This document shows positions 43,281 to 64,000 of a stretch of DNA of 64,000 nucleotides, piece after piece. This DNA is from Longimicrobium sp. (lineage in GTDB: Bacteria > Gemmatimonadota > Gemmatimonadetes > Longimicrobiales > Longimicrobiaceae). The DNA lies in contig DASUYB010000150.1 of the NCBI GenBank assembly GCA_036377595.1, positions 1 to 64,000 of the forward strand, in the 5' to 3' direction. The notes below the pieces were generated by a model that had not been told where the DNA came from, did not search any database, and saw nothing but the letters and a program-made list of their open reading frames with translations. Made by a program: the position numbers and the translations under genes. The first letter of the stretch is position 1. Each line of letters starts with the position of its first letter.

Positions 43281-44627
43281 TCACCGGCCCAGCAGGCGCG
43301 CCACCGCGTCAGCGGAGATGCCGAGGAGGAGCGGCCGTTCGGCCCGCGGGGCGCCGCCGTAGAGCACCGCGATCACCTGCCCGTCGGCGTCGAACACGGG
43401 GCTGCCGCTGGCGCCGGCGGCCGAGCGCGCGAACACCTCCACGCGTCCTCCCCGAACCGCGGCCAGCGTGGCGGGCGTCAGCACCAGGCGCGCCGCCTGG
43501 CCCCGCACCGGGTCGCCCGCGCCGGGAAAGCCGGCCACCATCAGGGGCGCGCCGGCGGGTAGGGTGTCGGGGCGCAGGTTCAGGCCGCGCACGGTGGGCA
43601 CCGCGCCCTCGATCCCCTCCACCCGCACCAGCGCCAGGTCCGCCTCGTCCGACGCGGCGGCCAGGCGCGCCGGCCACCTCTGCGACGACGCCGCGAACTG
43701 CACCGCGATCTGCCGCGGCGTCCCCCGTCCGTTCCCGCCCGTCACCACGTGGCGGCTGGTAACCAGCAGGGCGTCGCCGCGCACCGCGAACGCCGTCCCC
43801 GTCACCACCACGCCGTCCTCGTCCTCCACGAAGATCCGCGCCACCGCCAGCCGGTTGCCCCGCCCCACGTCCACCACGCGCGGCACCGCGGCCGTGCTCT
43901 CCGCCGCCGTCGCCATGAGGGGGGATGAAGATGGAGACGCGGGTGATGCGGCCGATGGCGCAGCGTCCGGCGGGCGATGCGTCCGCGGCGTCCGTCCGCG
44001 CGGGGATGCGGATCGTGCGGCGGGGGGATCGGACGAAGATGGGAGATCGGTGAGGGACGGCGCTCCCGCCGGCGGCGATCCGGCGAGCGCGGGCGCTGGC
44101 GGCGGGGATGGCGCGGCTCCGCGCTGCGGCGCGAGACGGATCGCCGCCGCGCCCGCCAGCGTCGCGAAGATGGCCCCCGCGGCGAAGGCGGCGGGCACGC
44201 CCATGCGGCGGCGTCCACCCTCCCGCGGCGGCCGCGCGGCGGCGGGGCGGCGCGCGCCGGCCATGCGGAACTCCAGCACCGGCCCCGCGGGGCCCAGGGT
44301 GATGCGGTCGCCGTCGCGAAGCCGCGCGGGCGAGGAGACGCGGCGGCCGTTGAGCCAGGTGCCGTTGGTGCTGGCCAGGTCGCGCAGCCTCCACCCGCCG
44401 CCGTCGCGCTCGACGCGGGCGTGGTGCGCCGACACCGCGGCGTCCGACGGCCCGGCGAAGCGCAGCGCAGCGTCGGGGTGGCGGCCCACGGTGCAATCCG
44501 CGCCGGTGAGCCGCAGCACCACGCCCGCGCGCTCGCCGGTCAGCACGTGCAGCTCGGCGGCCAAGGAGGGTTTCGTCGCAGGAGGGAATCGAAGACCAGG
44601 AATCGTCCCGGATCCGGATAAAGGCAT
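43281..44627 (-). CDS. FHA-domain, membrane-anchored trypsin-like serine protease
   Basis: A 448-residue protein. Residues about 24-120 form an FHA phosphothreonine-binding domain (TVGRHPDAALRF, SAHHARVERDGGGWRLRD, STNGTWLNG). One membrane span follows (VPAAFAAGAIFATLAGAAA), then a long Pro/Ser/Ala linker and a chymotrypsin-fold protease with His in LLVTSRHVV, Asp in DEADLALVRV and Ser in AAGASGSPVFD. The FHA domain faces the cytosol and the protease the periplasm. It follows the PP2C and kinase genes, which supports regulation by threonine phosphorylation as in Fha/PpkA/PppA systems. Its own substrates are unknown. Confidence 0.85.
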   Translation of the reverse strand: MPLSGSGTIPGLRFPPATKPSLAAELHVLTGERAGVVLRLTGADCTVGRHPDAALRFAGPSDAAVSAHHARVERDGGGWRLRDLASTNGTWLNGRRVSSPARLRDGDRITLGPAGPVLEFRMAGARRPAAARPPREGGRRRMGVPAAFAAGAIFATLAGAAAIRLAPQRGAAPSPPPAPALAGSPPAGAPSLTDLPSSSDPPAARSASPRGRTPRTHRPPDAAPSAASPASPSSSPLMATAAESTAAVPRVVDVGRGNRLAVARIFVEDEDGVVVTGTAFAVRGDALLVTSRHVVTGGNGRGTPRQIAVQFAASSQRWPARLAAASDEADLALVRVEGIEGAVPTVRGLNLRPDTLPAGAPLMVAGFPGAGDPVRGQAARLVLTPATLAAVRGGRVEVFARSAAGASGSPVFDADGQVIAVLYGGAPRAERPLLLGISADAVARLLGR

Positions 44628-44651
44628 CAGGAGTCCGAAACCCCTCCCGGT

Positions 44652-44839
44652 GTCATCCTGAGGGAGGCGCCGCGCCGTACCATGGTGCGAGCCGAATTCT
44701 GGCGCCGACCGAAGGATCTACTCGCCGCGCGGACAAAGTCTGTTTCTTCGAGCGAATCTCCAGCCCGCCATGCAAGATCCTTCGGGCGCGCGGAGCTCGG
44801 CGAGTACGCGGTTGCGGTGCTCCGCGCCCTCAGGATGAC
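44652..44839. repeat. Foldback repeat, GTCATCCTGA type
   Basis: GTCATCCTGAGGGAGGCGCC at the left, CCTCAGGATGAC at the right; inner CCGAAGGATCT and AGATCCTTCGG. It interrupts the otherwise tight secretion cluster between the FHA-protease and phosphatase genes. Confidence 0.7.
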
Positions 44840-44872
44840 ACCGCTGGGGTGCCTCACACGATTCGCAACGTT

Positions 44873-45781
44873 TCACCCCGGGTGATACGGGGCCCAGCCG
44901 ACGGTGTCGCCGGGCTGCGGGACGTCGAGGCCCGCGCCGTCGACGCGGATGGCGAGCACGGTGACGTTGTCGGGGCCGCCGCGGTCGTTGGCGGCGTCGA
45001 CCAGCACGCGGCAGAGGTCGGCCGTGTCGTGCCAGCGCGCGGCGGCCGCGGCGATCTCGTCCGGCGCCACCGCGCGGAACAGCCCGTCGGAGCAGAGCAC
45101 CAGCACGTCGCCGCGGCGCAGCTGCTGCCAGGTGAGGTCGACGGTGACGTCGGGCCGGGGCCCCAGCGCCTGCAGCAGCACGCTGGCCTGGCCGCTCCGC
45201 TCCGCCTCTTCGGCCGTGAGCGCGCCCCTGTCCATCAGCTGCTGCACCAGCGACTGGTCGCGCGTGAGCTGCGCCGCGCGCCCGCCGCGCACCAAGTACG
45301 CGCGCGAGTCGCCCACCTGCGCCAGGAACGCGCACCCGTCCAGCACCCCGGCGGCGGTGGCGGTCGTCCCCATCCCGTCGCAGGCGGGGTCGCGCCGCGC
45401 GTGGCGATGGATGGCGCCGTTCGCGTCTTCCAGCGCCTCGCGCAGCAGCGCCGCGAAGCGCGCGGGGCTGCCGTCGCGCGAGGCGGTCCACCGGTTGGAG
45501 AGCGCCGCGTAGATCGAGGCCACGGCCAGGCGGCTGGCCAGCGCGCCCGCGGCCGCGCCGCCCATCCCGTCGGCCACCACCGCCAGCAGCCCGTGCTCGC
45601 CCAGCGTGAAGCGGCGCGCCGGCTCGTCCCCGTCCGTCCCCACGCGCCAGGGGCCCTCGTCCACCGGCGCGCCCAGGTCGGCGATCAGGAACGAGTCCTG
45701 GTTCTCCCGCCGCCGCTGGCCGGGATGCGTGTGCCCGTACGCCTCGGCGTGGACGGCGCGGCCGACGGCGTAGGGGATCAC
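44873..45781 (-). CDS. PP2C-family Ser/Thr phosphatase
   Basis: A 302-residue metal-dependent phosphatase. The metal ligands lie in RRENQDSFLIADLG, VVADGMGGAAAGA, LCSDGLF and GGPDNVTVLAI; GTTATAAGV and VGDSRAYLVRGG are the central strands. The GTG start overlaps the kinase stop (GTGA), so kinase and phosphatase are made together. In type VI systems the matching protein is PppA, which reverses PpkA action on Fha. No membrane segment is present. Confidence 0.88.
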   Translation of the reverse strand: MIPYAVGRAVHAEAYGHTHPGQRRRENQDSFLIADLGAPVDEGPWRVGTDGDEPARRFTLGEHGLLAVVADGMGGAAAGALASRLAVASIYAALSNRWTASRDGSPARFAALLREALEDANGAIHRHARRDPACDGMGTTATAAGVLDGCAFLAQVGDSRAYLVRGGRAAQLTRDQSLVQQLMDRGALTAEEAERSGQASVLLQALGPRPDVTVDLTWQQLRRGDVLVLCSDGLFRAVAPDEIAAAAARWHDTADLCRVLVDAANDRGGPDNVTVLAIRVDGAGLDVPQPGDTVGWAPYHPG

Positions 45782-47418
45782 GGCGCGCCCCGGCTGCACT
45801 CGTCCAGCAGGAGCGACGCGGACTCCCTCGCGACCAGCGCGAGGGAGCTCCGGGCCCACTGCACGCAGCTTTCCGCGTCGCCCAGCCGGCTGGACGCTAT
45901 CGCCGCCACGTACGCCGCGTCCGCGCGCAATCTCCGCGACGCGCCGCGGCGGTACACGCCCACCGCCTGGCCGCGGATCCGCTCCAGCTCTCCCGGCCCC
46001 GCCGATCCCACCTCGTCCCCCAGCCGGTCGACCAGCGCGCGCGCAGCCACGTCCGGGTCCACCGGCGGCGGAGGAGGCGGAGGAGGCGGAGGAGGCGGGG
46101 GAGGAGGCGCGGGCGCGACCGCGACGGGGATCGGCGCTGAAGCGGAAGGCGCCGGCGCGGGCGTGGACGGGCCGGCCGTGGTGACGACCTCTCCCTGCGG
46201 CGCATCCACCGTCGCGGGCGAGGACGGCGGAGGTGCCGCGGCCACGGGCGCAGCCGCGGGCGCAACCGGCGAATCCGCGGACGCGATGGGCCCGCCTGCC
46301 CCGGCGCGCGAGCCGAGCACGCGGGGCGCGCCCCAGGCCAGCATCCCCACCGCCGCCACGCCGCCGATCGCGAACGACGTCCACCGCGCGAGAACGCGGA
46401 GCCGCGTGCCGGGCGTCGTCTCCCCCCGCCGCGCGGGGGCGGGGGTGACCACGGTGGGGGCGACGGAGACGGGATCGCCCGCGCAGATGCGGCTGATCCC
46501 CGTCAGCGGCCCGGCGGCGGCGGGCGCGGACGCCGCGGCGACGAGGGTGTCCGCGAACTCGTCCGCGCTGGCGAAGCGCTCCTCGGCGCGGCGCCGGAGC
46601 GCGCGGTCGAGCACCGCCTGCAGCGCGGGGGGCACGGAGACGCCGGGATAGACGGCGTCCAGCGGCATGGGGTCCACCGTCAGCCGCAGCTCCAGCAGCG
46701 AGGTGGTCGTCGTGGCGCGCCAGGGCTGCCCCCCGGCCAGCATCCGGTAGATGACCAGTGCCAGCGCGTACACGTCGCTGCGCCCGTCCAGCGGCGCGTT
46801 CAGCAGCTGCTCGGGGCTCATGTACTCGGGGGTGCCGATCACGAACTCGTGCCGGGTCAGGTCGCCCGCCACGCCCTCGGCCGAGCCCTTGGCGATGTCG
46901 AAGTCCACCACCTTCACCCGGTCCTCGCCGCGCGGGCCGGGCGAGATCATCACGTTCCCCGGCTTCAGGTCGCGGTGCACGATCCCCGCGTCGTGGGCGG
47001 CCTGCAGCGCCGCCGCCACCTGCCGCGCGATCTCCACCGCGCGCCCCAGCCCCAGGCGCCCCTCGCGCTCCAGCAGCTCGGCCAGCGTGCACCCCGGCAC
47101 GTACTCCATCGCCAAAAAGCGCGTCCCGTCGCCCGTGTCGCCGAAGTCGTAGACGGTGCATACGTTGGGATGGAGGATGCGCGAGACGTTGCGCACGCCG
47201 CGCTCGAAGCGCGCCGCGGCCTCGGCGTCTGACTCCAGCTGCGGGCGCAGCACCTTGATGGCGTCGCGCCGGCCGATGTGCAGGTGCTCGCCGAGATAGA
47301 CGGCGCCCATCGCCCCCTCGCCCAGCTTCTGGACGATGCGGTAGCGCCCGGCCAGCACGGTGCCGACCCGCGACGTCGCCGCCGCCTCGCCGGCGGCGGG
47401 CGGCACGGGCGCGGTCAC
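45778..47418 (-). CDS. Membrane-anchored Ser/Thr protein kinase (PknB/PpkA type)
   Basis: A 546-residue kinase. The catalytic domain has LGEGAMGAVYLGE, AIKVL (Lys near 55), HRDLKPGNV (about 148-156) and GTPEYMSPEQ. The magnesium loop reads VDFDIAK, so the usual Gly of D-F-G is Asp. One membrane span lies near 345-362 (TSFAIGGVAAVGMLAW). The outer part has a run of 14 prolines followed by a helical domain (DPDVAARALVDRLGDEVG). It is followed directly by the PP2C gene and lies in the T6SS-like cluster, so its likely targets are FHA or TssL-type proteins. Confidence 0.88.
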   Translation of the reverse strand: MTAPVPPAAGEAAATSRVGTVLAGRYRIVQKLGEGAMGAVYLGEHLHIGRRDAIKVLRPQLESDAEAAARFERGVRNVSRILHPNVCTVYDFGDTGDGTRFLAMEYVPGCTLAELLEREGRLGLGRAVEIARQVAAALQAAHDAGIVHRDLKPGNVMISPGPRGEDRVKVVDFDIAKGSAEGVAGDLTRHEFVIGTPEYMSPEQLLNAPLDGRSDVYALALVIYRMLAGGQPWRATTTTSLLELRLTVDPMPLDAVYPGVSVPPALQAVLDRALRRRAEERFASADEFADTLVAAASAPAAAGPLTGISRICAGDPVSVAPTVVTPAPARRGETTPGTRLRVLARWTSFAIGGVAAVGMLAWGAPRVLGSRAGAGGPIASADSPVAPAAAPVAAAPPPSSPATVDAPQGEVVTTAGPSTPAPAPSASAPIPVAVAPAPPPPPPPPPPPPPPPVDPDVAARALVDRLGDEVGSAGPGELERIRGQAVGVYRRGASRRLRADAAYVAAIASSRLGDAESCVQWARSSLALVARESASLLLDECSRGAP

Positions 47419-47442
47419 CGCCGCCCCCCGCGCGCGGCGCGG

Positions 47443-47970
47443 TCACTCACGGCCACACCCCTCGCCCTGCTCGCGGCGCTCCACGAAGCGCACCTGCCCC
47501 TCGTAGCGCGGCACGCGCACCAGCTGCACGGGAAAGACCGGGGTGGCGAAGGTGCGGCACCCCTGCGTGGTCAGCACGAGGACGGAGAGCACCTCGCGCA
47601 TCTTCCCGTCGGCGCCGGGCTCCTTGCGCACCCCCACGCTGTCCACGCGGATGCGGTCGTTGGCGCTCATCCGCCCGGCGGCCACCGCCAGCACCATCTC
47701 CCTGCGGAAGTCCACCTGCGGCGGCGGAAGCGGCGCGCTCTGCCCGCGGGTGGCGTTGCGCCAGAGCGAGCCCAGCGCCGCGGCGTCGCGCACCACCAGC
47801 CGCAGCGAGTCGCGCACGCCGCCCGCGTCGTCGTCGTACACCACCGCCGCCTGGGGCACCGGCTTCAGCGCCGGCTTCCCCTTCCCGCACGCGGCGGAGA
47901 TCGCGGCGGCGAAGAGGAAGAGGGGGATGAACAGCGGTCGGGGGATGGGGATGGAAGAAGGCCGGCTCAT
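47443..47970 (-). CDS. PrcB-like lipoprotein directly after tssM
   Basis: A 175-residue protein. The N-terminus (PLFIPLFLFAAAISAACGKG) is a signal peptide with lipobox S-A-A-C. The body has LGSLWRNATRG, VDFRREMVLAVAAGRMSAND and QLVRVPRYEGQVRFVER, resembling the PrcB C-terminal domain. Its ATG overlaps the tssM stop by four bases. In proteobacterial T6SS this outer-membrane lipoprotein position is taken by TssJ, which has a transthyretin fold; this protein is a different type but could have the same job. That is inference from position. Confidence 0.75.
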   Translation of the reverse strand: MSRPSSIPIPRPLFIPLFLFAAAISAACGKGKPALKPVPQAAVVYDDDAGGVRDSLRLVVRDAAALGSLWRNATRGQSAPLPPPQVDFRREMVLAVAAGRMSANDRIRVDSVGVRKEPGADGKMREVLSVLVLTTQGCRTFATPVFPVQLVRVPRYEGQVRFVERREQGEGCGRE

Positions 47971-51431: not shown

Positions 51432-51503
51432 CGCTGCGCTGCGGGTTGAAGGAATCTTGATCGGGTCCTGCGATTCAGTCGCCCATCGAATGTCCGTCCC
51501 GAC

Positions 51504-51545
51504 GTCCTAAGTCCTAAGTCCTGAGTCCTAAGTCCTAAGTGCTGA
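51504..51545. repeat. Heptamer repeat GTCCTAA x 6
   Basis: Six consecutive seven-base units: GTCCTAA, GTCCTAA, GTCCTGA, GTCCTAA, GTCCTAA, GTGCTGA. It lies in the spacer between tssL and tssM. A related run of GTCCTGA-like units lies just upstream of the second tssK. Confidence 0.85.
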
Positions 51546-51556
51546 GAAGCGCAGTC

Positions 51557-52303
51557 TCACCCCGGCCCGCCGGCCAGCCGCGCGATCTCGCGCACCCACG
51601 ACGACAGGTTCAGGGTGGCGGCGACGTAGAGCACCACCGCCAGCACCGCCAGGGCCAGCGCGGCCAGCCAGAGGCGGCGCACCCACGGGTCGCGCGCGGC
51701 GGGGACGGCCTCGTCCACCGGCAGCGTCCACGCGGGCGACAGCGCGCCGCGCGGGCCGCGGACGCGCGCCACCTTCTCGCGCGCGGCGCGCAGCCGCGCG
51801 TCCAGGCTGCCGCGGTCGGCCACGGCGTAGCGCCCGCGGAAGCCCAGCAGCAGGCAGAGGATGAACACCTCCAGCACGTCGGCCGTCTCCTCCGAGTCCT
51901 GCCGCCCCAACAGCTCGTCCAGCCGGGTGAAGAAGGTCTCGCCGGCCATGTGGTCGCCGAACACCTCTTCCTGCAGCGACTGGCTGGCCCATCCCGCCAG
52001 CGCCGGCTCGCCCGAGTTCAGCACCGACTCGTCGATCAGCGCAATGCTGGCGAAGGTCGCCATCTCCAGCGACGAGCGGTCGTAGCCGGCGCGCGCGCCC
52101 TCGCGGTCGGCGGCGGCCAGCAGGTGCTTGATCTGCGCGCGGAAGGCGCCGGCGTCGGCCACGCGGCTGCGGTGGGCGCGCAGCCGCACGGCCGCGGTGA
52201 ACACCTCCTGCAGCGCCATGGCCAGCTCGCCGCGGCGGGCGCGGGCGCCGGACGGGGCGGCGGTCGGTGCGGCCTGGATCGGGGGCTCGAGCGTGGTGAC
52301 CAT
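51557..52303 (-). CDS. tssL: Type VI secretion membrane-complex protein TssL (DotU family)
   Basis: A 248-residue protein. ALIDESVLNSGEPALAGWAS, EEVFGDHMAGETFFTRLDELL and DVLEVFILCLLLGFRGRY are the DotU signatures. A single membrane span at the C-terminus (LWLAALALAVLAVVLYVAAT) gives the usual tail-anchored topology. ATG 52303 is chosen. No C-terminal OmpA-like peptidoglycan-binding domain is fused, unlike some TssL. It works with TssM in the inner-membrane complex and binds TssK. Confidence 0.93.
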   Translation of the reverse strand: MVTTLEPPIQAAPTAAPSGARARRGELAMALQEVFTAAVRLRAHRSRVADAGAFRAQIKHLLAAADREGARAGYDRSSLEMATFASIALIDESVLNSGEPALAGWASQSLQEEVFGDHMAGETFFTRLDELLGRQDSEETADVLEVFILCLLLGFRGRYAVADRGSLDARLRAAREKVARVRGPRGALSPAWTLPVDEAVPAARDPWVRRLWLAALALAVLAVVLYVAATLNLSSWVREIARLAGGPG

Positions 52304-52470
52304 CGGCAGGATCAGGCGGGAGAATGAACGGACGGCGTACGGCGAAAGGGCCGCGAGTGCTCTTCGCGCCAGTCTACCGGGCCGGGAGATGCCGGTCATG
52401 GGCAGTTCTGCCCATTTGCCGCGCCTGGCGCGATCGGCCGTGCATTTCGAGATCGATCAAAAGCAGGTTT

Positions 52471-52540
52471 TCACACGGAGGGAACGGAGGAAACGGAGGA
52501 CGGAGGGCAGTTCTCCCATTCCTCCGTTCCCTCCGTGTGA
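52471..52540. terminator. Long hairpin, ACGGAGGGAACGGAGG type
   Basis: TCACACGGAGGGAACGGAGGAA pairs with TTCCTCCGTTCCCTCCGTGTGA, a 22-base stem. It lies after the first tssK on the minus strand and before tssL, so transcription may be split or attenuated here. Confidence 0.6.
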
Positions 52541-52581
52541 TTCCTGTCGGTGGATTTTTCTGATACGCACGGCGATGAGCC

Positions 52582-54223: not shown

Positions 54224-55189
54224 TCACTTCAGCGCGAACCAGAGCACCAGCACAACCGCCAGCACGACCACCACGACCAGGGCGATCAGCAGTGCGGTGC
54301 CGGAGCCGGCTTTTCCGCCCGCCGGGAGAGGCGGAGCCGGCGCCGGCGCCACGGCCGGCGCGGGATACGCGGGCGGCGGCGCGGCGAACGCGGGCGGAAG
54401 CGGAGGCAGCGGCATCGCGGGCACGTCGGCGGGGACGGCGGACGGCACGGGGTCGAGCGGCTCCGACGTGGCGTACAGCCGGTCGAGGTAGCTGTCGCTG
54501 CGCGGCGTGGCCGGACGCGCGAACGACAGCGGCGGCTCGCGCGGAGGGTCGTCGTACGGGAACGGATCGGGCGGCGGCGCGGGCCGCGGCGCGCCGAGCG
54601 GCTCCGCCGTCTCCGGCAGCTCCAGCCGCCGGAAGAGCCGGCTGAAGTCGCCGCCCGCGGGCGCGCCCGTCACCGGCGCCGGCCACGGCCCCGGCACCGG
54701 CGCGGGCGGCGGGGATTCGGCGACCACGGGCCGCGGCGCGGGCACGTCCATCACGAACAGCTCAGGCGGTTCGATCACCGGCGGCACGGGCTCGTCGACC
54801 ACGACCGGCGCGGTCTCGTCGATGACCGGTGGCGCGAGATCGATCGCCGGCTCCGGCGCTGCGGCGATCGCCGGCGGCGGATCGGGCTCCGCGACGGGCG
54901 GCGGCTCGATGGTCGCCTCGGGCGATGCGGCTTCCATCGCCAGGAACTGTTTCGTGAACTCGCCCGGCGGACGCGCGGGCGGCGCAGCGTCGGCGCTCGC
55001 GGGGGATGGATCCGCGGGCGGCGTGGATTCGGTCTTCGGCGCCGCCTCGGACGCCGATGCGGCCGCGGTCAGGTCGCCCAGGCGGAAGAGGCGGGTGAAC
55101 TCGCCCATCGGCCGCTCGGCGGGCGGCTCCCCCTCCGTCGTTGCAGGGGATTCGGGGAGGGGCGATCCGGGGGATTCGGGGCTCGTCAT
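54224..55189 (-). CDS. Proline-rich, tail-anchored protein with three GEFT-like motifs
   Basis: A 321-residue protein without a globular domain. Three similar short motifs are spread along it: GEFTRLFRLGDL (about 29), GEFTKQFLAMEA (about 76) and GDFSRLFRRLEL (about 190). Between them are long acidic, Pro/Ala-rich stretches. A C-terminal membrane span (GTALLIALVVVVVLAVVLVLWFAL) anchors it with the N-terminus in the cytosol. It starts one base after the stop of the second tssK, so it is co-translated with it. The motifs look like repeated docking peptides for a partner; which partner is unknown. Confidence 0.75.
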   Translation of the reverse strand: MTSPESPGSPLPESPATTEGEPPAERPMGEFTRLFRLGDLTAAASASEAAPKTESTPPADPSPASADAAPPARPPGEFTKQFLAMEAASPEATIEPPPVAEPDPPPAIAAAPEPAIDLAPPVIDETAPVVVDEPVPPVIEPPELFVMDVPAPRPVVAESPPPAPVPGPWPAPVTGAPAGGDFSRLFRRLELPETAEPLGAPRPAPPPDPFPYDDPPREPPLSFARPATPRSDSYLDRLYATSEPLDPVPSAVPADVPAMPLPPLPPAFAAPPPAYPAPAVAPAPAPPLPAGGKAGSGTALLIALVVVVVLAVVLVLWFALK

Positions 55190-55190
55190 C

Positions 55191-56540
55191 TCACCCGTCC
55201 TGCGGAAGGAGGATCACCAGGTCCATCTCCGGCTGCGGGAAGTCGGAGGAAGGCGCGTACACGGCCAGGTTCCGCGCCTTGCGCACCGTCTCCCACTCGG
55301 CCCCGGCGCGGTCGAGCAGGAAGTAGCTCCACCCCAGCTTGGCGGGGAGGAGGGACGGAGGCTGCGGCGCGTGGCGAATCGCCATCCCCGGCAGGGCGCG
55401 GCGGATCAGCCCTTCGATCTTGTCCGCCGAGCTGACCTTGAGCAGCTGTGGCGCCTTCTTCAGCAGCTCGGCCGTCTTCATCTCCGCCTTTATCCCCAGG
55501 TACATCTCCGGCGCCGCCAGCCAGCGGTCCTGCTCCAGGGCGGCGGCGTACACCATCGGCCCGCTGGCCTTCAGCGGCAGGGTGACGGCGTTCTCGGGGA
55601 CCGCCGTCTCCAGCAGCCCGCGCAGCAGCTCGTCGAGCCGGGTGAAGCAATCCCCCAGCTCCGCGTGGTCGTACGCGGGGAGGTCGCGCGGGTGCACGGT
55701 GGGCGAGAAGGCGGTCAGCGCGCCGGCCAGCGCCAGCATGGCGCTCCACAGCTCGCCCGGGTGGCCGCGGCGCACCTCCAGCAGGTGGCGGAAGCGGGGG
55801 AGATGGGTGTTGACGGAGTAGAGGAGCCAGAAGTGCGCGGCGTCGGCGCGCCCGAAGTCCGCCAGCCCCTGGTTGCGCTGCCGCCGCGTGGCCGAGAGCG
55901 CGCCGCCCCGCGCCGCCAGCAGCTCCACCAGGCGCCGGGCGATGCTCGTCAGGTAGCCGCTCGCCGACAGGTCCAGCAGCGGGGGGACGAAGCGGGGGTC
56001 GAGCCCCCAGGTGCCCGTCGCCGCGCACACTACGCGGGCGGCGCGGAGCACTGAGTGCCCGGCCAGCGACTCGCCCGAGGCCAGCAGCCGCACGTTCTGC
56101 CGGGCGAGCTGGATGGGCTTCTCGCCCGCGCCGGTGTTCTCGTCCGCGCGCGTGGCCACCTCGGCGCTGTAGCGCGCGGCCGCGTCGCCGCCGGCGAGGG
56201 AGACGTTGCTGCCGCCCGGCCGGTGCTCGGGGATGGCCAGATGGAGATCGAGCCACTGCGCGTCCGGCTGCCACGCGCCGTCCAGCGGCCGCGGCGGCGG
56301 AAGCGGCCCCCCGGCGGGAAGGTCGAACGGCGTGCCGTCGGGGAAGAGCCCCGCGGCGGCGGTAAGCGCCAGGGTGCCGCCGGCCAGCGCCTCGGGGTCG
56401 ATCTCCAGCCGCCCGAAGCCCCAGGGAAAGAAGCTCAGCGCGGAGAGCTGGAAGCCGACCAGGTCTTCCAGGAAGCGGTCCTGCGCCTGCAGGTGCTGGG
56501 GGGTCAGCAGCGTGCCCCGGGTCCACAGCACCTTCTGCAT
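55191..56540 (-). CDS. tssK: Type VI secretion baseplate protein TssK, copy 2
   Basis: A 449-residue protein. It opens with KVLWTRGTLLTPQHLQAQDRF, a TssK N-terminal signature, and contains AYDHAELGDCFTRLDELLR and KVSSADKIEGLIRRALPGM, matching the same blocks of copy 1 but with low overall identity. FLLDRAGAEWETV replaces the F-R-I-x-P-x-G-x-x-W block near the end. The ATG three codons in is used; an upstream ATG is equally possible. It heads a two-gene unit with the GEFT-motif protein and is preceded by GTCCTGA heptamers. Confidence 0.88.
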   Translation of the reverse strand: MQKVLWTRGTLLTPQHLQAQDRFLEDLVGFQLSALSFFPWGFGRLEIDPEALAGGTLALTAAAGLFPDGTPFDLPAGGPLPPPRPLDGAWQPDAQWLDLHLAIPEHRPGGSNVSLAGGDAAARYSAEVATRADENTGAGEKPIQLARQNVRLLASGESLAGHSVLRAARVVCAATGTWGLDPRFVPPLLDLSASGYLTSIARRLVELLAARGGALSATRRQRNQGLADFGRADAAHFWLLYSVNTHLPRFRHLLEVRRGHPGELWSAMLALAGALTAFSPTVHPRDLPAYDHAELGDCFTRLDELLRGLLETAVPENAVTLPLKASGPMVYAAALEQDRWLAAPEMYLGIKAEMKTAELLKKAPQLLKVSSADKIEGLIRRALPGMAIRHAPQPPSLLPAKLGWSYFLLDRAGAEWETVRKARNLAVYAPSSDFPQPEMDLVILLPQDG

Positions 56541-56572
56541 CTGCCGCATGGCGGGTCCGGTGGAGGATTCGA

Positions 56573-56611
56573 GTGGAGTCCTGGGGCCTGAGTCCTGAGT
56601 CCCGAGTCCTG
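56573..56611. repeat. Degenerate GTCCTGA heptamers upstream of second tssK
   Basis: AGTCCTG-GGGCCTG-AGTCCTG-AGTCCCG-AGTCCTG. The same seven-base unit as the array between tssL and tssM. Confidence 0.65.
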
Positions 56612-56668
56612 ATTACCACGTCCGGGGTGAAGCATTGGGTGCGTCCGACGAATCTCGTGCTGACGCGG

Positions 56669-56736
56669 TGATAGATCCTTCGGCCTGCAAGCTCTTGCGC
56701 GGACGCTGATTACGGTCTGGCCGGCTTCGGGATGAC
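56669..56736. repeat. Half foldback repeat (GATCCTTCGGCCTGCAA...GGGATGAC)
   Basis: Nearly identical to 43.17-43.23 kb: GATAGATCCTTCGGCCTGCAA, then GCGCGGACGCTGATTACGG and the GATGACGTCAGCG end. Confidence 0.6.
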
Positions 56737-56737
56737 G

Positions 56738-57292
56738 TCAGCGTGGGATTGGACCGGGTACATCTACCACCTTCGGGGAGCGCTGCTGCAGGATGATCTC
56801 GGGCGGGCCGGGCTGCAGCGTGAGCGCCGTGGTCCGGCCGCGCTGCAGCCGCACCAGCGCGCGCGCGCCGAAGACACCGCGCCCGTTGGCGTAGAGCAGG
56901 CACTTCACCAGGATCTCCTCGGCCCGGGCGCCCAGCAGGAAGCTGAACTGCATGCGGATGGAGGACCCGTCGCCGGCCACCGCGTAGGTGGTGTCGCGGA
57001 CGCTGTCGTAGACGAACACCGTCCGCGAGCCCTCGGTCACCGTCTTCCCGAACAGCAGCCACACGCGCAGCGACGAGACGCTGTCGAACACGGCCCGCGC
57101 GTTCTGCGGCGCCGCGGCCTCGGCGGGCGGCGCCACCGTCATCGCCAGCGACGCGGGCGCCTCCGCCGGCGGGGCCAGGAGGTCGCCGCACCCGGCCGCC
57201 GCCAGCGCGATCAGCGCCGCCGCCATCGCCCCCGCCGCCGCGAGGCGGCGGCGCCGCGCACGCATCGCCGCGCGTGCCGGCATCTCCATCCC
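56738..57292 (-). CDS. Predicted lipoprotein A of a paralogous pair (184 aa)
   Basis: Signal peptide with lipobox LAAAGCGDLL; the mature form begins at Cys. The body shares a spaced pattern with the adjacent lipoprotein: C-G-D-x-L-A-x-P-A, then SVSSLRVW, SSIRMQFSFLL and ARALVRLQRGRTTALTL. This is a small beta-rich domain of unknown function. ATG 57292 has GGGGAG eight bases upstream, which decides it over an earlier ATG. The 3' end runs into a foldback repeat. Confidence 0.7.
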   Translation of the reverse strand, partial: GMEMPARAAMRARRRRLAAAGAMAAALIALAAAGCGDLLAPPAEAPASLAMTVAPPAEAAAPQNARAVFDSVSSLRVWLLFGKTVTEGSRTVFVYDSVRDTTYAVAGDGSSIRMQFSFLLGARAEEILVKCLLYANGRGVFGARALVRLQRGRTTALTLQPGPPEIILQQRSPKVVDVPGPIPR

Positions 57293-57336
57293 CGCATCTC
57301 CCCGACTGCCGGTGGCGGCGATCATCTCGGGCTTTC

Positions 57337-57753
57337 TCACGGGACGGGGGTGACGGTGATCTCGGCGACGACCTTGCGGCCGCGCCACAGGCGCACGGTG
57401 GTGTCGGCGGCGAACACGGCCTCGCCCTGGCGGCGCAGCTGCACCACCAGGCCCAGGTCCTCGGGGTCGCTGTCCAGCAGCACCTCGAAGGTACGGCGGA
57501 TCTCTCCGCCCGACGGGGTGACGGCGACCGTGCCCTCCACCACCACCGCCGGCCCGCGGGTGACGCGCGCGTACACCGCGTCGACCTGGTCGTAGAGCGA
57601 GTCCAGCGCGCTCGCCATCACCCGTCCCGAGGGGTGGATGGAGAGGACCAGCGGCGCGGGCTCCGCGGCGGGCGCCGCCAGGAAGTCGCCGCACGCAGCG
57701 GCGGCGAGGAGCGCCGCCGCGGGCGCGACGCGCGTCCAGCCCCGCGCGCGCAT
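57337..57753 (-). CDS. Predicted lipoprotein B of a paralogous pair (138 aa)
   Basis: Lipobox LLAAAACGDF; the mature protein begins at Cys21. SLYDQVDAVYARV, EGTVAVTPSGGEIRRTFEVL and TVRLWRGRKVVAEITV line up with the same elements of lipoprotein A, so the two are duplicates that diverged. The ATG overlaps the stop of the outer-membrane protein gene by one base, linking them in one operon. Confidence 0.72.
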   Translation of the reverse strand: MRARGWTRVAPAAALLAAAACGDFLAAPAAEPAPLVLSIHPSGRVMASALDSLYDQVDAVYARVTRGPAVVVEGTVAVTPSGGEIRRTFEVLLDSDPEDLGLVVQLRRQGEAVFAADTTVRLWRGRKVVAEITVTPVP

Positions 57754-58880
57754 CACCGCCTCCCGCGGCGCAGGGTGAGGGCGAGCTCGGCGCCGGTGAA
57801 GCGGCTGCGCATGTCGCCGATCACCAGCACCTCGCCCATCCGCATCCGCGCGGAGGGGACCAGCGTGGCCCCCATCGCGGGCACCTCGGCGGCCAGGCCG
57901 GCGGCCACGCCGTAGCCCTGCCCCACCCCATCGGCGCTGTGGAAGATCCGCCCGTCGGCGGAGGGGAGGATCGCCCCTCGGTCGACGGGGATGCGCAGCG
58001 CGAGCCCGAGGAGCCCCAGGTTCTGCGCGGGAAGGTCCTGCGACGGGAGGGTCAGCCCCGCGCCGCCCTCGCGGTGCAGGAGGCCGGCGTACACCGCGCC
58101 CCCCACGCGCCCCTCGCCCGCGAAGGCGTACGACGCGGTCAGGTGATAGCGGTCGCCGGCGCGGTACAGGTTGGCGCCGGCCAGGCCGTCGTGCGCGTAG
58201 CGGTGCATCCCCCCCTGCAGCGCGGCCCGCCCCCCGCCCGACGTGTGGTCGAGGGTGACCACCAGGTACGTCTCGTCGCCCGGGCGGTAGGCGCCGCCGC
58301 CGTCGAAGGCGCGGTACTCGCGCCCGGCGCGGTAGCCGCCGCTCACCGCCACGCCGAAGCCGCCGAAGCGCGGCGACAGCTCCACGCCCGCGCCGCCCAG
58401 CGTGCCGCTTCCCCAGTGGGAGATGGCGAAGGGGAGGAGGTCCGAGGCCACCACCGCGGCCACCTGCAGCTCGTCGCCCGTCAGCCGCTGCTTGCCGGTG
58501 GGGACGACCAGCGTGCCGGTCACCGTCATCCAGTCGCCCACGACGGGGACGGCCACGCGCAGCTCCGCGTCGGTGGGCCCGTCGAGCGACGCCTCGCTCC
58601 CGTCCGCGCGCACCATCCGCGCGGATGCCCACGCGCCGCTGAGGGTGAGCCGCGCGCGCCCGGCGATCCGCGTCTCCGCGGCCAGGGGGACGGTCAGCAG
58701 CGAGACGCGCTCGATCCCCGTCCGCTCCGGCGCGGCGAAGGAATAGCTCTCGAATCGCGCCCCGGCGGCCGCCGTCCACGGCATCGCCTCTCCCTCCTGC
58801 GCCGCGGCCGCCGAAGCGACCGGGAGGGCCAGGAGGGCGAGGGCGATGCCGCGCCGCATCTTCCGATCAATCCTCTCCAT
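57753..58880 (-). CDS. Outer-membrane beta-barrel-like protein (about 375 aa)
   Basis: A signal peptide (GIALALLALPVASAAAAQ) is followed by alternating hydrophobic/polar strands, each ending in aromatic or polar turns, such as RARLTLSGAWASARM, FGVAVSGGYRAGREY, YHLTASYAFAGEGRV and GAVYAGLLH. The last residues (TGAELALTLRRGRR) are a beta strand but lack a terminal Phe. This fits an outer-membrane barrel. Two lipoprotein genes follow it directly. It may form an envelope part of the secretion locus, or an unrelated porin. Confidence 0.65.
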   Translation of the reverse strand: MERIDRKMRRGIALALLALPVASAAAAQEGEAMPWTAAAGARFESYSFAAPERTGIERVSLLTVPLAAETRIAGRARLTLSGAWASARMVRADGSEASLDGPTDAELRVAVPVVGDWMTVTGTLVVPTGKQRLTGDELQVAAVVASDLLPFAISHWGSGTLGGAGVELSPRFGGFGVAVSGGYRAGREYRAFDGGGAYRPGDETYLVVTLDHTSGGGRAALQGGMHRYAHDGLAGANLYRAGDRYHLTASYAFAGEGRVGGAVYAGLLHREGGAGLTLPSQDLPAQNLGLLGLALRIPVDRGAILPSADGRIFHSADGVGQGYGVAAGLAAEVPAMGATLVPSARMRMGEVLVIGDMRSRFTGAELALTLRRGRR

Positions 58881-58937
58881 GATCACCTGCCTGCATGAAC
58901 TTCGGGTGCATCGCCAACGGGAATGCGGCGCGTGCGT

Positions 58938-60242
58938 TCAGGGACGGGGGAAGACGAGCTCGATGGTGGCGGTCTGGCCGCGGAAGCCTTCCTGCCCCAG
59001 CGCCTCGGTGGCGGCGTCGCGGCCGCCGGGCGCGGGGACGAGGGACTGCACGGCGGCGATCCACATCGCGTTGCGCTCGGCGCGCGCCTGCGCCGCGATC
59101 TCCTCCGTGGTCACCCCGGACGCGCGCGCCGCGGCGGCCGCCTGGCGCGCCTTCGCCCGCGCCATGGCGAAGCCGGGATCCAGCCGCGCCGCCTCCAGGA
59201 AGTGGCGCACCGCCTCGGCGAAGTCGCCCTCGTCGGCGGACTGCAGCCCGCGCCCGAAGGCGAGCGCGGCCTGCAGGTTCTCCGTCGGCCGCACGAGAAC
59301 GCGGGCGCGCTCCTCGTCCGTCAGCCGCACGCCCAGCCGGCCGTAGATGTCGACCGCCAGCTCCTTCTCCATCCCGAACAGCCCGGCCAGCGCGCCGCTG
59401 CGGGCGGCGACGGCGGCGCCGGTGTCGCCCAGCACGCGGTCGACCTTGGCCACCGCGGCGTCGAGGCGGAGCGCCGCCTGGCTCCCCGCCACGCGCCCCT
59501 GCACCACGCTGGCGGCGCCCAGGAGGCGGCCGCTCCGCGCCGCCGTGGCCGGGTCCACCGCGCCGCTTTCGGCCAGCTTCAGCTCGTCGGCCAGCGCCTG
59601 CACGCGCACCCGCTCCAGCACCCGCAGCCGGTCGGTCTGCGACAGGTCGGTGGCCAGGAACTCGGCCAGCGCGCGGTCCAGCGGGCGCAGCGCCGGGTCG
59701 TCGGCGGTGACCAGGAAGGGGAAGACGGCCACGGTGCCGGGCTGCGGCGGCGTCTGCGCCAGCGCGGCCTCGCGCGCCAGGAGCGCGCGGACGGCGTCGT
59801 GCATCTCGCACCGCTCGAGCCCGGCCAGCCGCCCACGCACCCGCGTCTTCAGCGCCTGCGAGCCGCCGGGGGCGCGCAGGAACCGCTCGTACTGCGCCCG
59901 CGCGCAGGCCGCGTCGCCCTGGTCCTCGCAGGTCAGGCCCAGGAAGAGCGCGGCCTCGCCGTCGCGCGGCGCGCGCTGCGACGCGCCCTCCAGCACGCGC
60001 CGCGCGGCGTCCAGCCGCCCGGCGTCGCGGTACGCCTCGCCCAGCCGGACGGTGGCCCGCACGTCCGCCGGATCACGCGCCGCGCGGGCCTCCAGCGCAG
60101 CCACCCCCGCCGGCGACAGCCCGGCCGCCGGCGGCTGCGCGCACGCCGCCAGCGCCGCGGCCAGCGCTGCGGCGGCGGCAAGCGACAGGCGGCGAGTGTC
60201 CGGCCGGGTGATCCGGCGCGCGAAGACGGAATGGAGCGGCAC
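58938..60242 (-). CDS. Lipoprotein with TPRs and a FlgO/CsgG-like domain (434 aa)
   Basis: GTG start with GGAG nine bases upstream. Lipobox LAAALAACAQ. TPR-like pairs follow (LGEAYRDAGRLDAARRVLEG, LGLTCEDQGDAACARAQYE), then a CsgG/FlgO-like domain (TVAVFPFLVTADDPALRPL, EFLATDLSQTDRLRVLERVR, GRLLGAASVVQGRVAG), and a further helical repeat near the end (GLQSADEGDFAEAVRHFLE). It is an outer-membrane-associated periplasmic protein by prediction. It lies just upstream of the barrel gene. A shared domain links it to the 42.0 kb protein. Confidence 0.75.
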   Translation of the reverse strand: MPLHSVFARRITRPDTRRLSLAAAAALAAALAACAQPPAAGLSPAGVAALEARAARDPADVRATVRLGEAYRDAGRLDAARRVLEGASQRAPRDGEAALFLGLTCEDQGDAACARAQYERFLRAPGGSQALKTRVRGRLAGLERCEMHDAVRALLAREAALAQTPPQPGTVAVFPFLVTADDPALRPLDRALAEFLATDLSQTDRLRVLERVRVQALADELKLAESGAVDPATAARSGRLLGAASVVQGRVAGSQAALRLDAAVAKVDRVLGDTGAAVAARSGALAGLFGMEKELAVDIYGRLGVRLTDEERARVLVRPTENLQAALAFGRGLQSADEGDFAEAVRHFLEAARLDPGFAMARAKARQAAAAARASGVTTEEIAAQARAERNAMWIAAVQSLVPAPGGRDAATEALGQEGFRGQTATIELVFPRP

Positions 60243-60431
60243 GAGGGCGATCTCCAAGGCGGGAAGGACCGCGGGGCGGCGCCGAACGCGTGCGATCGAC
60301 GCCGGACTCAAGGGGTGGTGCGATCAAAATCACCATCGGGCCGGCGCCATGGGCCGACCCTGCATCCACGCTAAACCCGGAAGAAGGCCGTCGCATGGGC
60401 AGATCTGCCCATATCGATCATCCAGGAAAGA

Positions 60432-60500
60432 AGAATCTCACAGGGGCACAGAGTGAGGGAGGCACGGAGAACCCATCGCGGTCCTCCATGCCTCCGTGGC
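60432..60500. terminator. Imperfect hairpin, CACGGAGG type
   Basis: GAGGCACGGAGAACC faces GGTCCTCCATGCCTCCGTGGC with several mismatches. It belongs to the gene-end hairpin families and lies downstream of the TIGR02270-like gene on the minus strand. Confidence 0.4.
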
Positions 60501-60560
60501 GATCGACTTTCTGGTAGACCGACGGGATGATGATGTTCTGTGCGCTGACACCTCGCCGAC

Positions 60561-60627
60561 GTCATCCCGAGGCCGGCCAGACCGTAATCAGCGTCTCACA
60601 AGAGCATGCAGGCCGATGGATCTATCG
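60561..60627. repeat. Half foldback repeat, inverted copy
   Basis: GTCATCCCGAGGCCGGCCAG-ACCGTAATCAGCGTC...GCAGGCCGATGGATCTATC is the reverse complement of the 56.67-56.74 kb element with a few changes. Confidence 0.6.
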
Positions 60628-60673
60628 CCGGCCCAGCACGCGATCCGGGGAGACGCGCCGATTCTTCACCGGA

Positions 60674-61918
60674 TCAAACGCCAAGGACGCGGCTCTGGCG
60701 GTCGCCGCGCGCGCGGACCTCGAACAGTGCGTTGCCGGGGTAGCGCAGGGCGATCTCCAGCGCCGCCGCGGCGCGCTTGCGCTGCGTTCCCGTCCGCAGC
60801 GCATGGAGCAGCCCCGGCTGGTCGACCGGCGCGCCCAGCAGGTACCGGGTCCCCGCGGCGAAGCGACCTTGGTTCCGCGCCCACCACCCGGCGACGCGCT
60901 CCGGGTCGGGCCACGGCAGGTCCTCGTCGGCGTCCATCGCCACGTCCTCGTCCTCGGGATCGTCGCTCGGACCTGCCTCGAAGCCCTCCGGCGGCTTGCG
61001 GTCGAGGTTCTCGTACGCCAGGTCTGCCCCGGTGATGGCGCTGAACGCCTCGCCGGCGGGGCGTGCGAGCGCCTCGTCGGCCATCCGCTCCAGCAGCCAC
61101 GGCACCAGCGCGGGATCGGCCGCGGCGCCCGCGGCGATGACGGCGAGGCGATGCGCGTCCTGCGCGACGAGCCAGCGCCACCACCCCAGCGCCTGCGCCA
61201 GAGGCAGCGCGCGCGCGACCAGGTCCGCCGCCGCCTCCGCGCGCGCGCCGCCGGGGACGGCGAACGTCGCCGCCGTCCGCGCGGAGATCTCTCGGTCGCC
61301 CAGCAGCACGCCGGCCCAGGCGGCCCAGAAGCGGCACCCCTCGTCGCCGTCCTCCAGCGCCGCGGCGACGTCGAAGCGCAGGTCCGTGCGGCCCAGCTCG
61401 CCGGCGGCACGCAGCGCCCGCGAGCGCACCACCGGCTCGGGGTGCCGCACCAGCTCCGCCAGCCGCCGCCCCGGGTCCGCGCGGTGCACCGCGGACGCGC
61501 CCACGCCCATCCGGATGCGCACCGGGTGCTCGGAGGCCAGGAGATGCAGGACGTGCGGCTGCGCCTGGTCCCACCCCATCCACCCCAGCGCGGAGATCAC
61601 ACCGCGCGCCAGCTCGGGGGACTGGTCGGCCACGGCGAGCACCTCCTCGATCCGCAGCGGGTCGCCCGACTCGAAGGCGAGCGACGCGCCGGCGAACACC
61701 TCGCCCGCCTCCTCCCACGCCAGCTCGGCCTTGCACACCTCCCACCCCGCCTCCCCCGCGATGCGCAGGCCGTCGAGGTGGGCCTCCACGCGGCCGTCGA
61801 GCTCCGCCAGGTCGCGGAGCGAGTAGTTGCGCTGCGACACGGCGCGCGCGCGGAGGAGCCACAAAAAGGCGGCCTCTTCTGCGTATTGGAGGACGATGTG
61901 GGGAATGACGTAGCTCAT
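60674..61918 (-). CDS. TIGR02270-like, HEAT-type protein of T6SS loci
   Basis: A 414-residue helical protein. LRDLAELDGRVEAHLDGLRI is a family-like N-terminal block; then repeated helix pairs (ALGWMGWDQAQPHVLHLL, VRSRALRAAGELGR, GCRFWAAWAGVLLGD) form HEAT-like repeats. FSAITGADLAYENLDRKPPEG and LPWPDPERVAGWWARN are further conserved blocks of TIGR02270 proteins, known from type VI secretion loci. The function is unknown. It is seven bases from the methyltransferase gene upstream, so they are co-transcribed. Confidence 0.75.
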   Translation of the reverse strand: MSYVIPHIVLQYAEEAAFLWLLRARAVSQRNYSLRDLAELDGRVEAHLDGLRIAGEAGWEVCKAELAWEEAGEVFAGASLAFESGDPLRIEEVLAVADQSPELARGVISALGWMGWDQAQPHVLHLLASEHPVRIRMGVGASAVHRADPGRRLAELVRHPEPVVRSRALRAAGELGRTDLRFDVAAALEDGDEGCRFWAAWAGVLLGDREISARTAATFAVPGGARAEAAADLVARALPLAQALGWWRWLVAQDAHRLAVIAAGAAADPALVPWLLERMADEALARPAGEAFSAITGADLAYENLDRKPPEGFEAGPSDDPEDEDVAMDADEDLPWPDPERVAGWWARNQGRFAAGTRYLLGAPVDQPGLLHALRTGTQRKRAAAALEIALRYPGNALFEVRARGDRQSRVLGV

Positions 61919-61930
61919 CTGCACCGTGCC

Positions 61931-63538
61931 TCAGGAAGGCGCCGCGCCGAGCGGCTGCTCGAGCAACCCCCATCTCGCCAGCACCGGCAGCGTTCCATCC
62001 ACGAGCTCGTCGCCGAACGCCCGCCAGAGATGGCGCTGCGAGCGAGTCCCGTCCAGCGCGCGGACCATCTCCATCGCCGCCGGATCGAACGGGAGCGGCA
62101 GATGATACGGCGTAGTCAGCACCTCGCGATGCGCCGCTTCGAACCGGGCGAGCGCGTGGGCACGCGGATGCTCCGGAATACCGCGATCGTACGCGGGTTC
62201 GCGTAGCCGTAACTCGACCTGTCCGGCCTCGAAGAGCGTCGTCAGCTCCTCCGCGAGTTGGGCGGGCGTCCCCCGTCCCATCCCTATCCCGTGCTCGGCA
62301 AGGAGCCGCTCGGCACAAGCGTGCAGCTCGCCCAGCGGCACCCCAGCCGGCCACTGTGCCGCCAATAGCACCACCGCCGCCTTGGTGATCGCCGAGTCCA
62401 GCGTCACCACGGGTCCGCCCTGCCCGTCGAACGATTCGATCACGCCTTCCGTGAGGTCGAACGGGTCGGACCGCGCGCCGAGCGAGGTGGCGAGGTGGAC
62501 CTCGTCGAGGATCACCGAACGGGAACCCGGCTCGCGTGGAGCGTCCGCGCGGCAGAGGATCGATTGGCGGAAATAGCGGTCGCCGAGCAGATCCGCGGCT
62601 TCCTCCCGCTCGACGGGATCCAGCTCCCGCCGGGCGAGCGCCGAACTGATCGCGGAGGGCACGTGCCCCTCCCAGCGGCAGAACTGGGCGTCGCCCACAT
62701 AGTCCAGTCCGTGCCCGCACGCCTGCTCCACGAACTCGCCCAGCCAGAACCCGTCGTTCACCTCCGCGAGGTGCTCGTGGAAGACGTACCCCGGCTTCGC
62801 GTCGCGTACCCGCTCCATCTCGTCGGCCAGCAGGACCGCGTGGGCATAGTCGCGGGACGGCAGATCCTCCAGTAGCTCGGCGGCGAGCGCGATTGCCCTC
62901 GCCGCCTTCTCCTCGACGGGCGCGTCGCGGACGGCGCGGGAGCGCAGCAGCGTCTCGCGCACCATGCGGCGGGTGGCCCAACCCGGTTGCGCGTTGTAGG
63001 AGACGTAGGCCAGCCCGGCAGGCGCCAGGCACCGCCGGCAGAGGCCGAGGATCGCGGCCCGCGCATCCTCCGGCACCCAGGAGTAGAGCCCGTGAGCCAC
63101 CATGTAGTCGCATTCGCCGATCTCGCCCGGATCGACGTCGCGAACGTCATTGCGGATGAGGCGGACGTTGGCGAGCCCGAGGCAGCGGACGCCCATGCAG
63201 GCCCGCTCCAGCTCCGCCGCCGATGCGTCGACACCGACGAATGCCGATTCCCGGTCGTAGAAGGCCAGGGCCAGCAGATTGGCACCGTCACCGCACCCCA
63301 GCTCCGCCAGGCGATAGCGCCGGAGTGGCGGACGCGGGCCGCCGTGCCAGCGGGAGCAAAGCGCCAGGTGCGCGGGCGCGGTGTTGGCGACCACGGTTCC
63401 CAGGTACGGGACGACGTCGTATGCCGACCTTCCGGGTTTCACGGGATTCTGTTGCGGGGCATGGCCACTCCCTGGCCGATGATCCAGACGCATGTGTGCC
63501 GGGTGGTGCATCGAGTCGGCAGCGGCTTCCAAGTTCAC
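61931..63538 (-). CDS. Class I methyltransferase with C-terminal methyltransferase regulatory domain
   Basis: A protein of up to 535 residues. SAYDVVPYLGTVVANTAPAH precedes motif I (LAELGCGDGANLLALAFYD), VGVDASAAELERA and YMVAHGLYSWVPEDAR. The later half carries the methyltransferase regulatory domain (HEHLAEVNDGFWLGEFVEQA, DLLGDRYFRQSILCR). A winged-helix-like end follows. The start is unsure: GTG 63538 is the longest, and ATGs at 63511 and 63493 are alternatives. Its placement with a TIGR02270 gene suggests modification of a secretion component, but this is inference. Confidence 0.78.
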   Translation of the reverse strand: MNLEAAADSMHHPAHMRLDHRPGSGHAPQQNPVKPGRSAYDVVPYLGTVVANTAPAHLALCSRWHGGPRPPLRRYRLAELGCGDGANLLALAFYDRESAFVGVDASAAELERACMGVRCLGLANVRLIRNDVRDVDPGEIGECDYMVAHGLYSWVPEDARAAILGLCRRCLAPAGLAYVSYNAQPGWATRRMVRETLLRSRAVRDAPVEEKAARAIALAAELLEDLPSRDYAHAVLLADEMERVRDAKPGYVFHEHLAEVNDGFWLGEFVEQACGHGLDYVGDAQFCRWEGHVPSAISSALARRELDPVEREEAADLLGDRYFRQSILCRADAPREPGSRSVILDEVHLATSLGARSDPFDLTEGVIESFDGQGGPVVTLDSAITKAAVVLLAAQWPAGVPLGELHACAERLLAEHGIGMGRGTPAQLAEELTTLFEAGQVELRLREPAYDRGIPEHPRAHALARFEAAHREVLTTPYHLPLPFDPAAMEMVRALDGTRSQRHLWRAFGDELVDGTLPVLARWGLLEQPLGAAPS

Positions 63539-63573
63539 GAGCGCGGATCGCTACAGCGAGCCAGACGGAGTCG

Positions 63574-64000
63574 CTAGCACATCCGCAATCGCGTAATGCC
63601 GGCCTCCGAGCGATGCAGCCGGATCAGCAGGTTCGTCAGGACACCGTAGGCTGCGTCGTGCATTCCCTGGTCGCGGATGGAGAAATTCAGCTCGTCGAGA
63701 ATGATCTCGGGATCGTCCTCGGGCAAAAGGTCCAGCCTTTCCCGCAACGGGCCCGGATGGCGAAACCCTCCGAGCGCCCCCACCATCGACCAGATCCGGA
63801 GCATGTCGGAGACCGGCCCATGCTGCTGGACCGGAAGATCGTCAGCAAAGGAGATCGTGATCGTGACGTTCCGGTGCTCGCGCAGGTCGTCGATCTCGAA
63901 AGGGGCTTGCCGATAGACCTCGGGAAAGTCGTCGGGCGCATAGGCCTCCGGGGCCGTGTGACCCGCCGTATGTAACCATGCGCGCGTGACCTGCAGACCG
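63574..64000 (-). CDS. C-terminal part of an unrecognised protein, cut by the window edge
   Basis: The frame is open from the right edge to a stop at 63574, giving at least 141 residues. It reads AGHTAPEAYAPDDFPEVYRQ, then EHRNVTITISFADDLP and LDLLPEDDPEIILDELNFSI. The composition is coding-like and soluble. I do not recognise the family. It is 35 bases upstream of the methyltransferase gene on the same strand, so it probably belongs to the same transcript. Confidence 0.6.
   Translation of the reverse strand, partial: GLQVTRAWLHTAGHTAPEAYAPDDFPEVYRQAPFEIDDLREHRNVTITISFADDLPVQQHGPVSDMLRIWSMVGALGGFRHPGPLRERLDLLPEDDPEIILDELNFSIRDQGMHDAAYGVLTNLLIRLHRSEAGITRLRMC

Follow-up and report, generated by a model that had tools for sequence, protein, structure and literature searches.

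We analysed a 64,000-nucleotide stretch (the window) at the start of the 83,039-base contig DASUYB010000150.1 of the soil bacterium Longimicrobium sp. (assembly GCA_036377595.1). Its minus strand carries genes of a type VI secretion system (T6SS), including two full-length genes for TssK in the company of tssL and tssM, as a preliminary description of the window had reported; the kinship with Gemmatimonadota proposed there was also correct. That description overlooked that the double TssK occurs throughout the phylum and that a conserved motif-repeat gene, the most unusual part of the locus, lies between the two tssK genes. The central genes and features are:

55191..56549, minus strand: tssKA, TssK paralogue A, 452 aa (PF05936, 433 bits, full length; clade A in the TssK tree; related to solved TssK structures)
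54224..55189, minus strand: motif-repeat protein with a predicted tail anchor, 321 aa, its first base 1 nt past the tssKA stop
55085..55105, minus strand: motif copy 1, GEFTRLF
54944..54964, minus strand: motif copy 2, GEFTKQF
54632..54652, minus strand: motif copy 3, GDFSRLF
54233..54301, minus strand: C-terminal transmembrane stretch (putative tail anchor) of the motif-repeat protein, hydropathy 3.49 over 19 residues
52582..53937, minus strand: tssKB (PF05936, 396 bits, full length; AlphaFold model and Foldseek), likely start MTIPARVVW
51557..52399, minus strand: tssL (DotU; PF09850, 161 bits), sole copy in the genome
47967..51431, minus strand: tssM (IcmF; PF06761, PF14331, PF06744)

Both TssK proteins matched the whole PF05936 model, and TIGR03353 was matched with 391 bits by TssKA and 348 bits by TssKB. 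The two proteins aligned end to end with solved TssK structures through the shoulder, neck and head fold. The AlphaFold model of TssKB had a mean predicted local distance difference test score (pLDDT) of 87, and all of its best PDB matches in a Foldseek search were TssK. The earlier view that neither copy is degenerate was upheld. The 7.2 Mb assembly contained no TssK besides these two. A second TssK belonging to a separate complete locus was ruled out, since the only two in the genome both sit here.

To determine how widespread the arrangement is, TssK was counted in Gemmatimonadota (298 genomes) and in Acidobacteriota. Every Gemmatimonadota genome with a strong TssK had two (34/34, with our genome included and split frames joined), and in 27 of these both genes were on one contig. 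Double TssK is therefore a fixed trait of these systems. In Acidobacteriota single-TssK systems occur, and many genomes have two TssK; the two genes are not always linked and lie, for instance, 0.8 Mb from each other in Acidobacteriaceae KBS 96. In unlinked genomes tssKB remains beside tssL and tssM, and tssKA is often found beside tail genes. Of 22 double-TssK genomes, 20 had one TssG and one TssL; the other two, G273 with an extra TssG and G425 with both TssG and TssL doubled, hold an additional T6SS.

In a phylogenetic tree the TssK proteins formed two supported clades (Shimodaira–Hasegawa-like approximate likelihood ratio test, 99 for TssKA and 100 for TssKB), each including both phyla; the very long branch of GemB_G080 (contig NZ_CP007129.1) is an artefact of open reading frame boundaries. 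Since both clades span both phyla, the duplication predates the split of the systems between them, and an assembly artefact or a recent duplication was ruled out by the two ancient clades. The distance matrices of TssKA and TssKB gave a mirror-tree correlation of 0.91 over 42 genomes and 0.97 within Gemmatimonadota (the best of 5000 permutations reached 0.26). This coevolution, which comes partly from genome relatedness, fits with the two proteins being parts of one machine.

Two further observations were made during these counts. Gemmatimonadota also have another, distant type of T6SS, whose single TssK scores about 150 bits against PF05936 (L083-L089, that is G251, G273:C42, G255, G144, G288, G027 and G286). 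Within open reading frames of about 560-760 aa, the central part of the TssK model was matched weakly (G251:C41:27628-28029, which is L093, and G037, G032, G112, G168 and G361). The match in L093 sits near a ClpV-like gene, and such matches possibly belong to another contractile system.

The preliminary description had labelled the locus "T6SS-like" and had stated that no sheath, Hcp, VgrG or TssF/TssG gene lies in the window. The statement is literally true, but these genes follow immediately beyond position 64000, on the 19 kb by which the contig continues and on the same strand as tssK:

68954-71053, minus strand: VgrG
71085-73994, minus strand: ClpV
74203-75105 (extent of the match), minus strand: TssG (PF06996, 338 bits)
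75231-77072, minus strand: TssF, by synteny and homology
77065-77550, minus strand: TssE, by synteny and homology
about 77540-79350, minus strand: TssA
between TssA and Hcp, minus strand: TagJ/ImpE-like gene
80100-80588, minus strand: Hcp, by sequence recognition and matching to homologous clusters
80668-82152, minus strand: TssC, recognised in the same way as Hcp
82145-82657, minus strand: TssB, recognised in the same way as Hcp

Because the remaining tail, baseplate and ClpV genes follow on the same contig, the locus is a complete T6SS and the label does not hold; a partial or decayed system was likewise ruled out. Of the components of T6SS type i the locus has TssB, TssC and Hcp, TssE, TssF and TssG with TssK, TssL with TssM, and a VgrG/PAAR spike with ClpV. 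In profile searches TssL scored above the DotU cut-off. TssM had a clear Pfam match, but its NCBIfam equivalog score was 336 bits against a cut-off of 388 bits. TssJ (PF12790) was matched neither in our genome nor in 33 further ones, with a positive E. coli control, in agreement with the earlier observation. Several accepted T6SS lack TssJ, so its absence is no bar to membership, and we conclude that the locus is one complete T6SS without TssJ.

The motif-repeat protein of the window had no Pfam or NCBIfam match, and Pfam holds no family for it. In its relatives about 100 residues usually make up an N-terminal domain; Pro/Ala-rich linkers, in which PGEFTR[ML]F recurs, come next, and a hydrophobic helix lies at the C-terminus. 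The hydrophobic segment would serve as a tail anchor, a topology predicted from sequence, and the linker repeats are probably disordered. From 100 motif proteins, chosen for two or more copies, the consensus P-G-E-F-T-[RQK]-[ML]-F-Q was derived; the threonine was present in 99% of 549 copies, each protein had 2-18 copies, and the median spacing was 41 residues. A second motif, [DS]YLDRL, is common to several of the related proteins. Carriers include Gemmatirosa kalamazoonensis, Acidobacteriaceae KBS 96 and Acidicapsa dinghuensis. At 26 other Gemmatimonadota loci and at most Acidobacteriota ones the motif gene lies beside tssK on the opposite strand. The copy in the window is shortened, has the orientation of tssK and, unlike that of the same-genus relative G273, lacks the N-terminal domain.

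A blind DNA scan for PGEFTRMF in 84,980 genomes detected 103 stretches, none of them outside Acidobacteriota and Gemmatimonadota, and 80 of the 103 include tssK within at most 8 kb. TssK was present, generally in two copies, in 14 of 15 genomes checked, most of which came from the remaining stretches. A low-complexity accident was ruled out, as the reversed-pattern control gave 0 matches. Among the 298 Gemmatimonadota genomes 13 of 14 motif matches fell in or next to tssK. We then searched 64 genomes with a profile of the N-terminal domain, taking 43 bits or more as a strong match. Of 26 double-TssK genomes 22 gave such a match, against 0 of the 38 genomes with a single TssK or no TssK. When genomes picked by the motif were left out the numbers were 11 of 13 and 0 of 38 (p 1.6e-9, with shared ancestry as a caveat). 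None of the single-TssK loci examined had the motif protein, and in G425, which has both T6SS types, the motif gene occurs at the double-TssK locus only.

The N-terminal domain is, as judged from its sequence and predicted structure, a degenerate protein kinase N-lobe. Alignment of the domain with kinases from these loci by hhalign gave 95.1% (E 3e-8), and the controls gave 0.2-1%. The AlphaFold model of the domain (pLDDT 87) showed the strands, helix C, hinge and helix D, and its top Foldseek matches were protein kinases (probability 1.00, E-values 0.001-0.01). Since the position of the VAIK lysine is mostly histidine and the C-lobe with HRD and DFG is absent, we would not expect kinase activity from the domain. 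Weaker matches to the profile include kinases beside TssM in double-TssK loci, which suggests that the domain derives from such a kinase.

In enteroaggregative E. coli (EAEC) one TssG carries two TssK trimers, and the two LG-repeat feet of TssG plug into N-terminal residues of TssK (PMC6300606, PMC8406304). We therefore compared this socket between the paralogues. The N-terminal 25 residues were the best-conserved part of TssK within each class, with an identity of 0.73 within TssKA, 0.71 within TssKB and 0.44 between the two. The socket reads W-x-[K/R]-G-T-L-L-x-P-Q-H-L-Q in TssKA and W-S-E-G-M-x-L-x-x-H-H-F-Q in TssKB; W-x-[K/R]-G was present in 58/58 TssKA and W-x-[E/D]-G in 75/77 TssKB proteins. 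Both paralogues keep the N-terminal TssG socket (W8, L14 and F19 of EAEC), with L in TssKA for the F of HFQ. The LG repeats were intact in both TssG feet of double systems. Foot 1 was acidic in double-TssK systems (-4.1), compared to +2.0 in six single-TssK TssG proteins from Acidobacteriota, which is only a suggestion that TssKA may pair with foot 1.

Other genes of the locus within the window are:

45778..47418, minus strand: Ser/Thr protein kinase, PpkA-like (PF00069, 142 bits)
44873..45781, minus strand: PppA-like protein resembling PP2C-type phosphatases, its gene overlapping that of the kinase at the latter's end; named by inspection of frame and sequence
43281..44627, minus strand: protein with FHA and trypsin-like domains (PF00498, PF13365)
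58938..60311, minus strand: TPR/CsgG-like protein with a lipobox-like N-terminus (PF03783 and TPR matches), often near such loci
57753..58886, minus strand: probable outer-membrane beta-barrel protein, recurrently paired with the TPR/CsgG-like gene, the barrel being predicted from sequence

The fusion of an FHA domain to a trypsin-like protease domain within a T6SS locus was noted as a side observation. The TPR/CsgG-like probable lipoprotein and the likely beta-barrel (57753-60311; also 42032-42760, plus strand) recur at many Gemmatimonadota double-TssK loci and, with TssJ absent, are candidates for an outer-membrane module. Beside VgrG, at contig positions 64290-68309, lies an effector-like island with a protein having a PAAR-like N-terminus, a possible immunity protein, and DUF2169-like and ketosynthase-like frames (named by inspection).

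That the two paralogues work in one machine is well supported, and the mixed baseplate raised in the preliminary description stays a live option for two TssK sharing one TssG and one TssL. The explanation that we consider somewhat more probable than not is a heterotypic wedge, with one type of TssK homotrimer per TssG foot, and the motif protein as a multivalent docking scaffold in the inner membrane. TssK would have split into two ancient, co-inherited paralogues bridging baseplate and membrane. A TssKA homotrimer would occupy one foot and a TssKB homotrimer the second, so that each baseplate would have six trimers of either kind. TssKB, whose gene accompanies tssL and tssM, would probably retain the classical contact with the membrane complex. 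The tail-anchored PGEFTRMF protein would most likely reside in the inner membrane, where its repeats could act as a flexible multivalent tether that collects the trimers of a single TssK class, probably those of TssKA, where assembly takes place; its invariant threonine could let the kinase and phosphatase of the locus switch the tether. It is from the data above that we infer the trimer composition, foot assignment, membrane topology, binding partner and phosphorylation. A broader proposal, to which we give only tentative credence, is that Acidobacteriota and Gemmatimonadota have a separate T6SS architecture, in which a new scaffold, tail-anchored and phospho-switchable, with a dead N-lobe and up to 18 motifs binding one TssK class, would recruit a heterotypic TssKA/TssKB baseplate to the inner membrane.

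Several points weigh against the heterotypic wedge with its scaffold. The motif protein of the Longimicrobium genome itself lacks the N-lobe, and no strong N-lobe match was obtained in genomes G300, G302 and G483 either. The lysine socket was also found in one single-TssK Burkholderia system (no TssG was in the stretch examined); the charge argument for TssKA and foot 1 is therefore not exclusive, and the TssG feet are suggestive, not proof, of which TssK sits where. The interactions of the subunits are predictions, and TssKA and TssKB could form heterotrimers. Finally, the double-TssK state may have arisen once, in which case few independent events lie behind the correlations and the Fisher p makes them look stronger than they are.

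The strongest rival for the motif protein, although we hold it to be unlikely, is that the PGEFTRMF repeats are phosphothreonine docking sites, phosphorylated by the kinase of the locus and bound by FHA proteins, and that TssK is not their direct partner. In Agrobacterium, Fha binds phospho-TssL (PMC3953482). The near invariance of the threonine agrees with this role, as do the presence of kinase, phosphatase-like and FHA genes in the window and the similarity of the N-lobe to Ser/Thr kinases, several of them adjoining TssM. However, FHA genes were present at only 8 of 27 double-TssK loci, though an FHA protein could be encoded elsewhere, and single-TssK Acidobacteriota loci carry FHA genes without the motif protein.

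For the paralogues themselves, the preliminary description had offered two alternative baseplates with a common membrane complex. In such a cell either all-TssKA or all-TssKB machines would be built, according to condition or cargo. Both TssK are intact with distinct sockets, and they belong to separate operons in some genomes. Yet there is a single TssL and a single TssG, each foot of which would have to suit both sockets, neither paralogue was lost in any of the 34 Gemmatimonadota genomes, and the two strongly coevolve; we regard this arrangement as improbable. Mixing of paralogues is common among ring subunits, and the common fold, strict co-retention and coevolution are also compatible with trimers containing both TssKA and TssKB. 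We give such heterotrimers a marginally smaller chance, as the three-fold symmetry of the trimer and the TssG foot is ill-suited to two subunit types, the socket at the trimer apex is conserved within but not between classes, and the two genes can be unlinked in the chromosome. Least probable of all is that just one of the TssK serves in the baseplate and its partner has taken on a new function off the wedge, such as that of a receptor on the membrane side to which the motif protein holds on: when separated, TssKB is always by TssL-TssM and TssKA often by tail genes, but the TssG-binding N-terminus is the most conserved part of both and both TssG feet are intact.

The T6SS and each TssK belong to known families. 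The two-TssK arrangement and the PGEFTRMF protein are new, in that no earlier description and no two-TssK machine was found in the literature searched, with subscription journals outside its coverage; the papers listed there that name TssK1 and TssK2 concern, by their titles and abstracts, separate T6SS clusters. Among the closest known systems is SecReT6 type i (i4b-like), with which the locus shares complete tail, baseplate, membrane-complex and ClpV genes, and from which it is set apart by its pair of TssK clades, its motif scaffold and the lack of TssJ. A T6SS on a Gemmatimonadetes plasmid of 1,106 kb was assigned to i4b from its TssB and grouped with a system on an Acidobacteria plasmid; the passages found in that paper do not mention a doubled tssK (PMC9113992). 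The kinase, phosphatase-like and FHA genes resemble the PpkA/PppA/Fha regulation of Agrobacterium (PMC3953482), and similar threonine-centred signalling is possible; here, however, the candidate target is the multi-copy PGEFTRMF protein, and the linkage of FHA genes is patchy. Pseudokinases such as CASK, which was among the PDB matches, have the kinase fold from N-lobe to hinge in common with the motif protein, whereas the latter keeps the N-lobe only and continues with repeats, which are probably disordered, and a hydrophobic segment at the C-terminus. The PGEFTRMF protein serves as a diagnostic marker and is a candidate for a new core component in two soil phyla that are abundant, little studied and without detected TssJ. 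The T6SS baseplate has so far been described with one TssK filling two non-equivalent positions per wedge; if each position has its own paralogue, these systems would be a natural experiment in which the two roles are separated and in which it can be tested how the TssG feet divide the labour. Our system shares with the TssK-TssF-TssG wedge of EAEC (PDB 6N38, 6GIY) the TssK fold, the N-terminal socket and a TssG with two LG feet, but in EAEC a single TssK gene serves both positions, whereas here two diverged TssK genes accompany one TssG.

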